Shown here piece after piece: positions 5,518-40,974 of a stretch of 55,132 nt of DNA. Made by a program: the position numbers and the translations under genes. Under the pieces are notes generated by a model. The model made no database searches. It was not told the DNA's origin and saw nothing but the letters and a program-made list of their open reading frames with translations. Within the stretch, counting starts at the first letter, position 1. Each line of letters starts with the position of its first letter. Source of the DNA: Candidatus Dadabacteria bacterium (GTDB taxonomy: Bacteria; Desulfobacterota_D; UBA1144; Nemesobacterales; Nemesobacteraceae); NCBI GenBank assembly GCA_007571325.1, contig RKRQ01000015.1:1-55132 (forward strand). Reading direction: 5' to 3'.

Positions 5518-5574
5518 TTACGGACTACTTCGATCAGCGGTATTTGACACCACATCAACCTAAGTATACATTTA

Positions 5575-5780
5575 GATTCAGATACAGGCCAAGGGAATCA
5601 GGTGAGAAACCTGAACTGTTCCCGCAGCCGTGATAAGGGTTTTTTCCGTGCTCCCGCGAAGCGCACCCGTGCTTCGGGTCACTGGCTTTGATTACTGTAG
5701 CCGGGAAGGCCGCATCAGGAAAAGTCGCTCTGTTTCAATACGGACGGCCCTTTAAGTCGGAAGACCTTCCTGCGTCAATC
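5575..5780 (+). promoter_or_regulatory. Cobalamin (B12) riboswitch
   Basis: Conserved aptamer strings AAGGGAATCAGGTGAGAAACCTGAACTGTTCCCGCAGCCGTGA, GTCACTGGC, CCGGGAAGGCCGC and B12 box AAGTCGGAAGACCTTCCTGCG in order, upstream of a BtuB-like gene. Confidence 0.95.
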
Positions 5781-5838
5781 TAAATAGCTTTGCCTCGGGA
5801 GTTAGGCTTATGGCCCTTATAAACACATCTTTAATTTT

Positions 5839-5866
5839 CCGCGCGGTCGCGCGGTCCTTGTTTTTT
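5839..5866 (+). terminator. Intrinsic terminator, probable expression platform of the B12 riboswitch
   Basis: CCGCGC-GGTC-GCGCGG perfect stem-loop followed by TCCTTGTTTTTT, between aptamer and btuB start. Confidence 0.8.
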
Positions 5867-5936
5867 CGCCGTACAAGCTTATTTGAGCAATTGCCTCCCA
5901 GGGAAAGCTATGCGCCAGCACCCGGAGGAATTAAGA

Positions 5937-7862
5937 ATGAACTGCCTTAAGATAGTTTTTGCCTTTATTTTAACCTTGACTCTGTTCCCGAACATAGGTT
6001 TTTCCGAACAGAGAGAAGTAGAAAAAATTATAGTTACCGGGACAAAAACCTGGATGGACGCCGAGCGTCTTGGATCTTCCGTCACTGTTATCACCAGAGA
6101 AGAAATTGAAAAAAGCGGGGAAAAGGATATAGCGTCCATACTTTCCAAGGTCCCCGGATTCAACTTAGTCAGATCGGGAAGTCGTGGAGGTATCGCTTCC
6201 ATTTTCGTAAGGGGAGGTCAGTCTGATTACAACCTTGTGATGATAAACGGCGTACAGGTAAATCAGTCTGGAGGTGGATTCAATATCTCTTCTGTTACTA
6301 CTGATAATGTGGAAAGAATAGAGATAATAAAAGGCGCGCATTCTTCCCTGTATGGTTCCGACGCAGCTTCTTCCGTTATCAATATAATAACAAAGAGCGG
6401 AAGCGGAAAAATCAGAAAAAGCAATTCTTTTGCCCTGGGATTCCGCGCTGAGGACGCGATAATCCTAGAGCATTCCTCAAGCATATCAGGCAGTTTGGAA
6501 AATCTGAGTTATTTCCTTGTCTACGATACAATCACTGACGAAGGCATTCTGGAAACTAACAACGAATACAAAAACAATGCCTTCACAGCAAATTTAAATC
6601 TGGAAGCAACCGACAATCTAAACTTCTCTTTGTTCTCCATTTACAAAAATTCAAAGTTTGAATTTCCGACCGGAGGCGCAGGAGACAGGTTTGATACATT
6701 CTCAGACCCGGACCAAGGAACTAAGGAGAAATCACTTGTTACGGGGGCCAGCATCGTTTTTTCTCCAACTCAGTGGTGGGAGAACTCATTTAAGTTCGGT
6801 TACACAAGACTCGATGCGGAGAACTATGATGGACCTGAACCACTTGAATTGGATAATCCATTCCCCTTTGACTCTCTGGACAAAAGAATATCGCTTGAAT
6901 ATGGGTCTAGCTTTTTTATCGACTCTGATCAGATATCAAGCGTAACCTCCGCGGGATTTGAATATGAAAAAGAAAGTTTCAAAACAGACTCTTTAAATGA
7001 GTCAAGAAAAAACTACGCTTTATACTTTCAGAACAACTTCGGGCTGCTTGATATGTTCTTCGTAACGGCAGGAATAAGATATGACGACAATGAAGCATTC
7101 GGAAATGAGTGGAGTCCGAGCATCTTCGCCAAGTGGAAGATAAAAGAATCGGGAACCAAAATAAGGGGAGGTGTCAGCAGAGGAATAAAAGAGGCGACTT
7201 TTTTTGAAAATTTCAGCGCATCTTTTACGATTCCCAATCCGAACCTAAAACCCGAAGAAACCCTGACTGCAGAAATAGGCGTCAACCAGCCGTTGTTTGA
7301 CGATGCAATTGAATTTGATCTAAGCCTTTTTCAGAATAAATTCAAAAACATTATCGCATACAGCTACATACCGTTTGACAATGGAACCAACTACGAAAAT
7401 ATAAGTCGGGCGAAATCCAAGGGAATTGAAGCCACAATCCGCGTTTACCCAATTGACTCCCTGACTCTAAGCACATCCTACACATATCTTAAAACCGAAG
7501 TAACCGATGATGGCGGCTTGGGGTCCGCATCTTTTTCCAAAGGGGAAAATCTCTTGCGGATACCCGAACATTCGTTCTCGTTTAACGCAACATATTCAAG
7601 AAACGCTTTCAGTCTTAACCTTTCGGGTAGCTATATAGGCACCAGGGATGACGTGAACTGGAGTGAGTTTGTAAGAATCAAAAACGATTCTTACTTCCTC
7701 GTCGACGCCGCGGCTTCCTATGAAATCGGAGTAAAAAGACTTGTTGAGAAAATCAGGCTGTTTTCAAGAATCAACAATATGTTTAACAAAGACTATGAAG
7801 ACGTTTTCGGTTTTTCATCCCCGGGGTTCAGCATTGTTTCAGGAATTTCAGTGGTTCGTTAG
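5937..7862 (+). CDS. btuB: TonB-dependent receptor, BtuB-like (vitamin B12 receptor)
   Basis: TonB-box-like start, plug domain (LSKVPGFNLVRSGSRGGIASIFVRGGQSDYNLVMINGVQVN), beta-barrel; downstream of B12 riboswitch; ATG at 5937 preceded by GGAGG and followed by a signal peptide. Confidence 0.92.
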   Translation: MNCLKIVFAFILTLTLFPNIGFSEQREVEKIIVTGTKTWMDAERLGSSVTVITREEIEKSGEKDIASILSKVPGFNLVRSGSRGGIASIFVRGGQSDYNLVMINGVQVNQSGGGFNISSVTTDNVERIEIIKGAHSSLYGSDAASSVINIITKSGSGKIRKSNSFALGFRAEDAIILEHSSSISGSLENLSYFLVYDTITDEGILETNNEYKNNAFTANLNLEATDNLNFSLFSIYKNSKFEFPTGGAGDRFDTFSDPDQGTKEKSLVTGASIVFSPTQWWENSFKFGYTRLDAENYDGPEPLELDNPFPFDSLDKRISLEYGSSFFIDSDQISSVTSAGFEYEKESFKTDSLNESRKNYALYFQNNFGLLDMFFVTAGIRYDDNEAFGNEWSPSIFAKWKIKESGTKIRGGVSRGIKEATFFENFSASFTIPNPNLKPEETLTAEIGVNQPLFDDAIEFDLSLFQNKFKNIIAYSYIPFDNGTNYENISRAKSKGIEATIRVYPIDSLTLSTSYTYLKTEVTDDGGLGSASFSKGENLLRIPEHSFSFNATYSRNAFSLNLSGSYIGTRDDVNWSEFVRIKNDSYFLVDAAASYEIGVKRLVEKIRLFSRINNMFNKDYEDVFGFSSPGFSIVSGISVVR

Positions 7863-24042: not shown

Positions 24043-24058
24043 TGTTTCACGTGAAACA
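24043..24058. promoter_or_regulatory. parS centromere site (perfect consensus)
   Basis: TGTTTCACGTGAAACA, exact match to the ParB binding consensus; just downstream of mnmE. Confidence 0.93.
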
Positions 24059-24070
24059 TCTCCTTCTCCT

Positions 24071-25465
24071 TTACTTTCCTATACAAAACCTGGAGAAAAT
24101 TCTGCCCAGAAGGTCCTCTGTAGTAACTTCCCCGGTGATTTCACCAAGTGAGTTCATGGAATTTCTCAATTCTATAGAGAGAATCTCTGGATATTCCTTT
24201 CGTTCAAGAAGTTTGAGGAAAGCACCGAGTTGACCGCGAGCTTTTTCCATGCATTTTTTATGGCGGAGGTTAGTAAGCACCAATTCTGATGCATCTACCC
24301 CAGAAGGCAAGTTCGCAAGGGTCTCAAACATGGCTTGTCTGAGCCGTTCCATACCTTTTTTTGTGAGAGCTGAGGTTTTTACCGGTTCTTTATCTCCGAG
24401 AATCTGTCGGACCTCTGATTGCTGCAGCTTTCCTTCAAGGTCCATTTTGTTGATTACGACAAGATAAATCTTCTTAGCGGCGGTTTCGAGGATTTTTCTG
24501 TCCAATGCATCCAGTTCGGTGCTTTGGTCCAAAACGACGAGTATGAATTCAGCTTCCTCCGCTTTTTTGAGAGAAAGCTCCACCCCGAGTCTCTCTACCT
24601 GGTCCTCCGTATCCCGTATACCGGCCGTATCCGTTACAACAAAGGGAATTCCATTAACGTTCAATCTTTCTTCAATAAAGTCTCTTGTAGTTCCGGCAAT
24701 TGGGCTTACTATAGCCCTTTGAGTTTCAAGGAGGCAGTTAAGTACGCTTGACTTCCCTACGTTAGGTTTGCCGAGGATTACCATTCTCACACCATCTCTG
24801 AACATTCTGCCGGTTTCATAACTCTCAATTAGTCTCGAAAGTTCTTTTTCCACCAATTCAGCCGCTTCTTTAAGACGATTTTGTGCAAGAGAATCTATAT
24901 CTTCTTCAGGGAAATCGAGATTCGCTTCTATTTCCGCTAGGCTGTCCAGAATTTTGTCCTTAAGCTCGTTGACTTTGGCTGAAAGGACCCCTTCGAGCTG
25001 AACTTCGGCATATCGGAGGCTTTGTTCCGTCTGAGCGGTTATTATGTCGGAAACCGCCTCAGCTTGGGCCAAGTCCATTTTTCCATTAAGAAACGCTCTT
25101 TGAGTGAATTCCCCCGGGGCGGCCAGAGCCGCTCCACAATTCATTAACATCTCAAGTATTTTTTTGGGAACAACATAGCCCCCGTGAGAGTGTATTTCGG
25201 CCATGTCTTCCCCTGTGTAGGTATAAGGGGAGGTCATAACGGCACAGAGAACTTCGTCTACTGTGTTACCAGTTTCAGGATCAATTATTTTTCCGAAACG
25301 AAGCTTTCTTTCAGAAAAAGCCGAATTTCCTACCGGAACAAATATTTTTCTTACAATTGCGTGGGATTGTCTGCCACTTATGCGTATTACCGCAACTCCT
25401 CCCTCTCCGGGAGGAGTTGAAATGGCGGTTATAGTGCTTTCGTACTTTGGCATAAGGGACGACAT
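24071..25465 (-). CDS. mnmE: tRNA uridine-5-carboxymethylaminomethyl(34) synthesis GTPase
   Basis: TITAISTPPGEGGVAVIRISG, GKPNVGKSSVLNCLLETQRAIVSPIAGTTRD, C-terminal FSRFCIGK. Confidence 0.97.
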   Translation of the reverse strand: MSSLMPKYESTITAISTPPGEGGVAVIRISGRQSHAIVRKIFVPVGNSAFSERKLRFGKIIDPETGNTVDEVLCAVMTSPYTYTGEDMAEIHSHGGYVVPKKILEMLMNCGAALAAPGEFTQRAFLNGKMDLAQAEAVSDIITAQTEQSLRYAEVQLEGVLSAKVNELKDKILDSLAEIEANLDFPEEDIDSLAQNRLKEAAELVEKELSRLIESYETGRMFRDGVRMVILGKPNVGKSSVLNCLLETQRAIVSPIAGTTRDFIEERLNVNGIPFVVTDTAGIRDTEDQVERLGVELSLKKAEEAEFILVVLDQSTELDALDRKILETAAKKIYLVVINKMDLEGKLQQSEVRQILGDKEPVKTSALTKKGMERLRQAMFETLANLPSGVDASELVLTNLRHKKCMEKARGQLGAFLKLLERKEYPEILSIELRNSMNSLGEITGEVTTEDLLGRIFSRFCIGK

Positions 25466-25505
25466 GAAACAGAATCTACCATATAAAGCTGAGTTGAGTC
25501 AGGGG

Positions 25506-25547
25506 AAAAACAAAAAACCCTGAATGTTTCACGTGAAACATTCAGGG
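25506..25547 (-). terminator. Apparent intrinsic terminator built on the parS palindrome
   Basis: Minus-strand read: CCCTGAATGTTTCACGTGAAACATTCAGGG followed directly by TTTTTTGTTTTT, between the CMD-family gene stop (25590) and the mnmE start (25465). Confidence 0.65.
25525..25540. promoter_or_regulatory. parS centromere site (perfect consensus)
   Basis: TGTTTCACGTGAAACA, centred in a 30-bp perfect palindrome CCCTGAATGTTTCACGTGAAACATTCAGGG (25518-25547). Confidence 0.93.
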
Positions 25548-37865: not shown

Positions 37866-38083
37866 TTCCGAAGTAAAAGTGTATTGTAAGCTTGGTTAAG
37901 TGTCAATCACGCCTCCGTACCCGAAAAATTTCTCCAGCTTACCCCTTTGCTGCTGAAAGCCGTTCTTATTGACACTGAAGAAAAGCGTGGTTAGAATCAA
38001 ATTTACTTTCCAGAGGGTGGTTGGGATTTTCTGTTAAGGGTCTGTTTTTTTGTCGCTCTTTTTGATTTTCAGGGCAGGTACCG

Positions 38084-39469
38084 TTGAAACAAGCTGAAAA
38101 AGGTCAGACTGGTCAAGATGTGGTATTTGACTGGAAAGCGGTTCTTGAGCGCATCAAGTCTCACTCACCCCCCGACTGGCTGTTTTCAATAGAAGTAACG
38201 AGAACAGAAGGACGGAAGATTACTCTCGGGGCCAAGTCGCAATTTCAGGCTCTCTGGGCAAAAAACCACTACCTTCCTCTGATAAACGAAACCGCAGGCA
38301 ACCTCTACGGAAAGGAAATCTTTGAAATAACGATAGATACTGACGGCTCTGGCCCGAGCGGCGGAGAATCAAGAAAAAATGGTCGCGATGCCAAGCCGGA
38401 AGATAAAGAAGTCCGGGCTCCTCGGGCGGAAAGTTTTCCCAACTCGGCCAATTCGTTTGAGAATTTCATCGTAGGACCAAGCAACCAGTTCGCTCACGCC
38501 GCTTCTTACGCAATAGCGGAGAACCCCGGGAAAGCCTACAATCCGCTTTTCATACACAGCGGGGTAGGCCTCGGAAAAACCCATCTTCTTCACTCCATAG
38601 GGAACCACATACTTAAAAAAAACGGAAGCCGGATCAACATTTTCTGTATCTCCGCAGAGCATTTCACGAACGGAGTCATAAAGAGCATAAAAACCGGTTC
38701 CATGGACAACTTCAGGGATCTCTACAGATTCAACTGCGACGTTCTTCTGATAGACGACATTCAGTTCATTGCGGGAAAAAACAGCACTCAAGAAGAATTC
38801 TTCCATACCTTCAACTCTCTCTACACGGCAAAAAAACAGATAGTCATAACCAGCGACAAGCACCCAAGCTTAATAAAAAACTTCGAGGAGCGCCTCAAAT
38901 CACGATTTGAGTGGGGACTCACGGCGGATATACAACCACCGGAAGTAGAGACCAAAATAGCCATCATAGAGAAAAAGGCAGAAAAAGAGCGAATTGAGGT
39001 CCCGGCCGACGTAGCGTCATTTCTGGCGCAGAACATCGTTTCAAACGTAAGAGAACTTGAAGGATCGGTAAACAAGCTAGCCGCTTATTCAAAGATGTTC
39101 AACGAGAGAATAACCCTCGAACTGGCAAAAGACCTCCTAAAAAACCTGGTAAAAAAGGAAAGCCCAAAAATAATAACGATAGAATTAATCCAAAAAGAGG
39201 TAAGCTCGTTTTTCAACCTGACCGTGAAAGAGCTAAAATCCGACCAGAAACAGAAAAAAGTCTCAGAGCCCAGGCAGATAGCAATGTTTCTTTCAAGGAG
39301 GTATACTTCTTCGTCATTCCCCGAGATCGGAAGCAAGTTTGGTGGGAAAAACCACTCCACGGTAGTCCACGCGGTAAAAAACATCGAAAAAAAGATCTAC
39401 AGGGATCCTTCGGTCTCAAACGCCGTATCTGCTCTCTCCGCAAGCCTTGAGAAATTTATAACCTCCTGA
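38084..39469 (+). CDS. dnaA: Chromosomal replication initiator DnaA (TTG start)
   Basis: FENFIVGPSNQFAHAASYAIAENPGKAYNPLFIHSGVGLGKTHLLHSIGN, DVLLIDDIQFIAGKNSTQEEFFHTFN, C-terminal GGKNHSTVVHAVKNIEKK. Confidence 0.98.
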   Translation: MKQAEKGQTGQDVVFDWKAVLERIKSHSPPDWLFSIEVTRTEGRKITLGAKSQFQALWAKNHYLPLINETAGNLYGKEIFEITIDTDGSGPSGGESRKNGRDAKPEDKEVRAPRAESFPNSANSFENFIVGPSNQFAHAASYAIAENPGKAYNPLFIHSGVGLGKTHLLHSIGNHILKKNGSRINIFCISAEHFTNGVIKSIKTGSMDNFRDLYRFNCDVLLIDDIQFIAGKNSTQEEFFHTFNSLYTAKKQIVITSDKHPSLIKNFEERLKSRFEWGLTADIQPPEVETKIAIIEKKAEKERIEVPADVASFLAQNIVSNVRELEGSVNKLAAYSKMFNERITLELAKDLLKNLVKKESPKIITIELIQKEVSSFFNLTVKELKSDQKQKKVSEPRQIAMFLSRRYTSSSFPEIGSKFGGKNHSTVVHAVKNIEKKIYRDPSVSNAVSALSASLEKFITS

Positions 39470-39771
39470 ATCTCTCCCCAATTAACAGGCTGTTAAAAAA
39501 GACTGTGAAAGAGTTTGCGATTTTCTGTTGATACGTAAGAACAAGCAAAAAGCGTGTAAGTATCTGTCGAAAAAATGAAGAATTACGAACATGCTTGAAC
39601 GGCAGAAAAAACCCCTCCCTAAAGCGGTTCCGCCAATTTCACAGTTTTCACAACGACTATGACTACTACTGAGTAAAGATAAATTAAATATAAAAACAGT
39701 AAGAACAGACGGTACTTCACAGTAAGCTTATTGCGGAAACCGCAAAAATGGTTATTCTGTCAAGATAGAAA

Positions 39772-40974
39772 ATGACTGAACCTACTATTCCTGCTATACA
39801 GTTCAAAATAAACGGTGGAGAATTCTCAAAGAAACTCGGCATGATACAAGGAGTCGTCGAGAAAAGGACGACCATGCCCATTCTCTCCCACGTTCTGATT
39901 TCATCTTCTGAGGAAGGACTTTCTCTCGAAGCTACGGACCTTGAAAATACGGTCGCTGTCCAATGTGACGCGAAAATAGAGGGAGAGTTTAAGCTGGCGG
40001 TTCCCGCCGGTATTCTGGCTGATCTTGCAAGAGAAACACGCGAGGAAGAAGAAATTTCAGTTGTCATTGGTGAGAACAACTGGGTTGAAGTTGTAACGAG
40101 TTCTGGTTCTTTTAAGATCGCTGGATTATCGGCCGATGATTTCCCAAGAATACCAGAGGTTTCTTCACAAGATCTTTTTTCGGTTTCTTCGGAAAGTCTT
40201 GAAGAAATGATATCCAAGACAGTTTTTTGCTCTACTGAATCCGAAAATGAAATGAGAAAAAGCCTCTCTGGGGTTTTCTTTGAGAAAAAAGGAGATCAGA
40301 CACTGAGACTTGTGGCTACGGATGGTCACAGGCTCAGTTTCTTTGATCAGAAAATAGAAGGTCTGAATCTTTCAAAAGATATTCTGGTTCCTAAAAAAGC
40401 AGTTCTGGAGATAAGGAAGCTTCTTCGTCTCTCCAAAGAAGTCCGGATCGGCGACAGCGGCAACTTTTTCGTTTTTGAACTCAAAGATGAGAATCTGATT
40501 TTCACCTCAAGAATAATTGATGCCGAGTTTCCCGACTACATGCAGGTGGTTCCCGTTTCAACGAGAAACACTGTTAAAGTCGATACGACCAGACTCCTGC
40601 TCGCGTTGCGCAGGGTTTCTCTTTTTTCTCCTGAGAACCCGAAGAGCGGAGGAAGGTTCGTAGAGATGACATTTAGTGAAGGAAGTTTTCTTCTCGGGGC
40701 CTGTCTCAGCACTGGCGAGGGGGAAGAAAACATATCAGTTGAGTATAACGGGGAAAAAACTAAATTTGGCTTTAATTTCACTTACTTTCATGAAGTTTTG
40801 GATGTTATAGGGTCTCTTGAGATTATAATAGGTTTTTCCGGCGACAAGAACCCGGTTGTGCTGGTTCCCTGTGAAGATGGCGACAGGCGGGAGGGCTATG
40901 TGAACGTTATAATGCCAATGGAATCTGATACTAAAGCCGATGCTAAAGGGGCGGAGGGGCAGGCAAGGGGATAG
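39772..40974 (+). CDS. dnaN: DNA polymerase III beta clamp
   Basis: Position after dnaA; PILSHVLISSSEEGLSLEATDLENTV, LVATDGHRLSFFDQKI. Confidence 0.95.
   Translation: MTEPTIPAIQFKINGGEFSKKLGMIQGVVEKRTTMPILSHVLISSSEEGLSLEATDLENTVAVQCDAKIEGEFKLAVPAGILADLARETREEEEISVVIGENNWVEVVTSSGSFKIAGLSADDFPRIPEVSSQDLFSVSSESLEEMISKTVFCSTESENEMRKSLSGVFFEKKGDQTLRLVATDGHRLSFFDQKIEGLNLSKDILVPKKAVLEIRKLLRLSKEVRIGDSGNFFVFELKDENLIFTSRIIDAEFPDYMQVVPVSTRNTVKVDTTRLLLALRRVSLFSPENPKSGGRFVEMTFSEGSFLLGACLSTGEGEENISVEYNGEKTKFGFNFTYFHEVLDVIGSLEIIIGFSGDKNPVVLVPCEDGDRREGYVNVIMPMESDTKADAKGAEGQARG

Follow-up and report, generated by a model that had tools for sequence, protein, structure and literature searches.

Bacterial centromere sites are usually treated as pure DNA elements. 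Work on ParB and transcription has shown that in Pseudomonas aeruginosa ParB represses promoters next to parS (PMC5521831), and that in vitro, at up to 200 nM ParB, elongating E. coli RNA polymerase still passes condensates of purified Bacillus subtilis ParB, although long pauses rise (PMC10681803). Terminators go unmentioned in a review of chromosomal ParB, and in the open literature we found no description of an element that is both parS and terminator; an earlier remark in subscription journals is possible. Here we describe such a candidate element in Candidatus Dadabacteria, in a contig of 55,132 nucleotides (the window), one of 105 in a draft genome of 1.3 Mb whose mnmE has its nearest named relatives among Candidatus Dadabacteria.

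A search of the window for parS that allowed up to three mismatches, with 0.23 matches expected by chance, shows that the exact sequence TGTTTCACGTGAAACA is present twice, at 24043-24058 and 25525-25540, on the two sides of mnmE. The first-pass annotation had placed the latter copy, a candidate ParB loading site, within a longer perfect palindrome, and this is correct: the palindrome spans 30 bp (25518-25547), is centred on parS and adds 7 bp to it at either end. Read on the minus strand, these bases can be drawn as a stem-loop (CCCTGAATGTTTCACGTGAAACATTCAGGG) with 13 pairs and an ACGT loop, in which parS forms the top of the stem. The T-tract that had been reported directly after it, TTTTTTGTTTTT, is found on that strand reading from 25517 down to 25506. 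As the annotation also had it, the element lies between a carboxymuconolactone-decarboxylase (CMD) family gene (PF02627, 25590-26285, minus strand), whose stop codon precedes the palindrome by 42 nt, and mnmE (TrmE_N, MnmE_helical and MMR_HSR1 domains, 24071-25465, minus strand). The CMD gene is the upstream co-directional unit that would presumably be terminated here.

The element has what an intrinsic terminator is expected to have: a stable GC-based hairpin, a T-tract directly after it and a gene on the same strand just upstream. Its predicted RNA fold has an energy of -20.3 kcal/mol (z = -5.7), a value equalled by none of 200 shuffled sequences. In a stricter scan for terminator-like sequences on both strands of the whole 55-kb window it was the best of 10 matches; six shuffled windows gave 2 to 8 matches each in the same scan. 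The earlier proposal that parS and an apparent intrinsic terminator are joined in one element is supported. Some observations count against such a double use. Intrinsic terminators look sparse in this window, and the stem is AU-rich in its upper half, where it consists of parS itself. The absence of an Rfam match at 25506-25547 excludes a known RNA family, such as a riboswitch or attenuator, at this position. Elsewhere in the window, at 5569-7862, a cobalamin riboswitch (RF00174) precedes a gene for a TonB-dependent receptor.

The genomic setting is that of a chromosomal parS. A canonical parA-parB operon is found on another contig of the genome, so that a ParB accompanied by ParA is encoded. 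In the window, dnaA (38084-39469) and dnaN together span 38084-40974, and the cumulative GC skew has its minimum near 38-40 kb (turning at about 38000-40500); the two parS copies are thus about 12.5-14 kb from the likely origin, with the copy in the hairpin about 12.5 kb from dnaA. The second exact copy (24043-24058), just after the mnmE stop codon, has neither an extended palindrome nor a T-tract and serves as an internal control. Sites resembling parS with two mismatches occur elsewhere in the genome. Many order-level relatives (L034-L044, L060-L062, L068-L074) carry DnaA-box-like inverted TCCACA..TGTGGATAA motifs directly after the post-mnmE parS, which suggests that in these relatives the origin may lie at the 3' end of mnmE, and some of them (L034, L040, L042, L060-L062) have a second parS-like site, TGTTGCACGTGAAACA, with one conserved mismatch, about 1.7 kb after the first.

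We then compared the locus within the genus. parS with a T-tract is found upstream of mnmE in 13 of 14 genomes; in the remaining one the contig ends inside mnmE and the locus is unassembled. All 13 assembled loci have the order CMD gene, parS hairpin, T-tract, mnmE, with 42-50 nt between the CMD stop and parS. The 16 bases of the parS core are identical in the 13 loci while the outer arms vary, the arm pairs being CCCTGAA/TTCAGGG, CCCCGAA/TTCGGGG, GCCTTGAA/TTCAAGGC, GTCCTGAA/TTCAGGAC and CCCCCTGAA/TTCAGGGGG. In an alignment of the 13 sequences (A1), 93.3% of the cells are paired and four pairs are changed on both sides. The covariation score (0.161, against 0.075 for shuffled alignments) was reached in none of 500 shuffles, although 13 related sequences hold few independent events and kinship inflates such counts. 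Controls in which the pairing register was slid, which retain the relatedness of the rows, fall far below the true score, and no slid register reaches it. The stem is thus maintained by compensatory change in its outer seven pairs, as in a terminator, and an invariant core with covarying arms is what would be predicted if a DNA site and an RNA stem were selected simultaneously. When flanks were shuffled, a strict detector (cut-off -14 kcal/mol) found a parS-centred hairpin with a T-tract in 0 of 125 versions of the genus set. It replaced a looser detector whose false-positive rate in shuffled Dadabacteria flanks was 4-6%, and with which weak matches (about -9 kcal/mol) appear at some downstream parS sites.

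These data bear on two other readings. The hairpin alone would account for termination of the CMD transcript, in which case the parS-like core would be a coincidence or a relic, unused by ParB. We consider this very improbable, given the exact 16-bp consensus in 13/13 loci, the lack of covariation inside the core while the outer pairs vary, and the distance of the site from dnaA. Conversely, the extended palindrome could serve ParB or DNA structure, as a longer binding site or a cruciform, with the T-tract being incidental AT-rich DNA. parS is itself palindromic and its extension in the window is perfect, as this reading would have it, but the post-mnmE parS, which these genomes also carry and which would serve the same ParB, is extended by at most 3 bp and lacks a T-tract. 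Moreover, the sequence of the arms is free as long as pairing holds, and the T-tracts lie on the side expected from gene direction. The mismatches in the outer arms are also informative: there are two G.T and no A.C in the genus, and three G.T and no A.C in the Noc-encoding family described below, a bias that is expected of a transcript carrying the T-tract and does not fit a palindrome acting as DNA. A role confined to ParB or DNA structure is accordingly one to which we give very little credence.

Downstream of the T-tract, the sequence preceding mnmE contains promoter-like motifs on the minus strand. A possible -35 element, CTGACT (25497-25502), has its CTGAC kept across the genus, and a possible extended -10 element, ATATGG-TAGATT (25473-25484), is likewise kept in the genus, with related versions in the sister genus and a second family. 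The extended -10 motif, ATATGGTAGATT, lies 7 nt before the annotated ATG of mnmE (window 25466-25502), and two Dadabacteria families share the motif TTTATATGGTAGATT a few bases upstream of the mnmE start codon. The conservation of this motif downstream of the T-tract suggests that mnmE has a transcription start of its own, and, if the motif is an extended -10 element, mnmE appears to be near-leaderless.

Outside the genus, the arrangement differs. In the sister genus (L059) the CMD gene, parS and mnmE occur in the same order, and a separate terminator (-19.1 kcal/mol) has a T-tract that runs up to parS. Several outgroup genomes of other families (L063, L065-L067) keep parS upstream of mnmE without any hairpin, which is a further argument against a core unused by ParB; in two of them (L065, L066) the upstream sequence reads, by eye, as the start of a divergent gene. 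Families without parS at this place show no strong terminator between CMD and mnmE, and the fusion was absent from all Dadabacteria examined outside the genus. A T-tract match in G017 was rejected as a fusion for want of a palindrome extension. The first-pass annotation had proposed to look for parS with its T-tract in relatives: this expectation holds in all 13 assembled loci of the genus and fails beyond it, so that the fusion is a genus-level trait. Since terminator and parS are separate in the sister genus, and parS has no hairpin elsewhere, the fusion is recent. It sits at a place where transcription from a gene on the same strand runs into parS and the putative mnmE promoter.

To ask how common such elements are, parS sites with TTTTT within 12 nt were searched across the domain. 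They are uncommon (46 of 387 genomes, 13 of the 46 belonging to this genus). Since the search would miss any site without TTTTT at that distance, the frequencies given here and below are minimum values. Outside Dadabacteria, a true parS-centred stem was found in G383 (arms AAGAGGA/TCCTCTT), in two genomes after gyrA, as judged by eye from its C-terminal sequence (G360 and G447, GGGGGAC/GTCCCCC), and, with a bulge, in G323. Three other matches (L227, L217, L224) have T-tracts and no parS-centred stem of note. The family of G383 (f60), known by its genes, encodes Noc (TIGR04285). In 11 of its 61 genomes, parS was found by the T-tract search inside the terminator of rsmG. Another 20 genomes of this family, which that search had not selected, were judged by a looser criterion, under which parS falls within a predicted terminator in 7; of the 43 sites in these genomes the strict detector accepted 2, compared with none of 215 shuffled ones. 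In one genus of the family (L259-L261), the terminator stem downstream of rsmG is made of two asymmetric parS copies in inverted orientation, which base-pair with one another. If parS overlaps the rsmG stop codon or lies well away from it, the terminator is usually a separate structure.

The search was widened to 399 genomes of the same phylum. Among 103 parS sites around T-tract matches, 19 are parS-centred terminators, compared with 1 of 515 shuffled versions, and these 19 sites come from 17 further Bacillota genomes in 12 families (the assignment of the non-Dadabacteria genomes to Bacillota rests on their Noc and SpoVA genes). The adjoining genes include parB/noc, rsmG, ptsI-like/spoVA, phosphofructokinase and larC. 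Classical bidirectional terminators sit between convergent genes, and several of the parS-terminators are bidirectional, for example AAAAAGCCCCCCGATGTTCCACGTGGAACATCGGGGGGCTTTTT in G600, with sites between convergent genes in L282, L285, L316 and L329. These bidirectional examples again argue against an extension that serves ParB or DNA structure. Similar fusions arose separately in other bacteria, many of them Bacillota. On a bolder view, which we regard as unlikely, parS-terminators would be a general kind of centromere element that has evolved many times: transcription would be brought to an end on purpose where ParB loads, and ParB occupancy and termination would act on each other.

Taken together, the sequence comparisons favour a dual use of one 42-bp element, which acts as parS when read as DNA and as an intrinsic terminator when read as RNA, with no need for cross-talk between the two; we give this reading a probability of roughly 0.84. 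In duplex DNA, the invariant 16-bp core would be an origin-proximal parS at which ParB loads. In the CMD transcript, the same bases, together with 7-9 covarying GC-rich pairs and the U residues that follow, would fold into an intrinsic terminator. RNA polymerase coming from the CMD gene would stop in the short stretch that separates parS from the mnmE promoter, and the CMD transcription would thereby be kept off that promoter. As for its origin, a parS already near the mnmE promoter was likely extended later into the hairpin, because its 16-bp palindrome is a ready-made top for a stem; in the sister genus terminator and parS are neighbours that have stayed separate. The same exaptation took place several times in Bacillota.

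The two functions could instead be coupled, with loaded ParB altering termination efficiency or repressing the mnmE promoter, so that the state of segregation feeds back on transcription. The first-pass annotation had suggested such a link between ParB spreading and termination or mnmE expression, and the present comparisons do not support it. In several lineages some 24-46 nt separate parS from the mnmE -10 motif, and the repression of adjacent promoters by P. aeruginosa ParB at parS (PMC5521831) makes an effect on the mnmE promoter possible, though it is unsupported here. On the other hand, mnmE seems to have a conserved promoter-like motif of its own beyond the T-tract, no sequence feature of the element demands coupling, and the failure of B. 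subtilis ParB clusters to stop elongating RNA polymerase in vitro (PMC10681803) means that the enzyme could reach the T-tract without being held up by ParB. We therefore consider coupling doubtful and retain the dual use of a single sequence as the best explanation.

If this explanation is right, a centromere sequence doubles as an RNA structure, one that is kept across a genus and has evolved again in more than a dozen families of Bacillota. A natural and compact element of this kind makes the coexistence of transcription and ParB loading at parS directly testable. It also calls for caution, as a mutation in parS may alter termination, and vice versa.

The closest known systems each share some features with the locus. 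At parS3 and parS4 of P. aeruginosa, as here, parS is near a promoter whose use ParB could affect; the link there is promoter repression, and no terminator is described (PMC5521831). In the rsmG-parS-noc region of the Noc-encoding Bacillota family, parS likewise lies within the terminator of the upstream gene, but the genes are others, the arms are unrelated and, in one genus, the stem consists of two inverted parS copies. With chromosomal ParABS sites in general the element shares the exact consensus, the presence of two copies near dnaA and a canonical ParA-ParB pair in the genome, and differs in that this copy is inside a hairpin with a T-tract. With intrinsic terminators it shares the GC-rich lower stem, the tetraloop, the U-tract, the position after a stop codon and the covarying stem; it differs in having an upper stem and loop that are not free to vary, since they would also be a protein-binding site on DNA.
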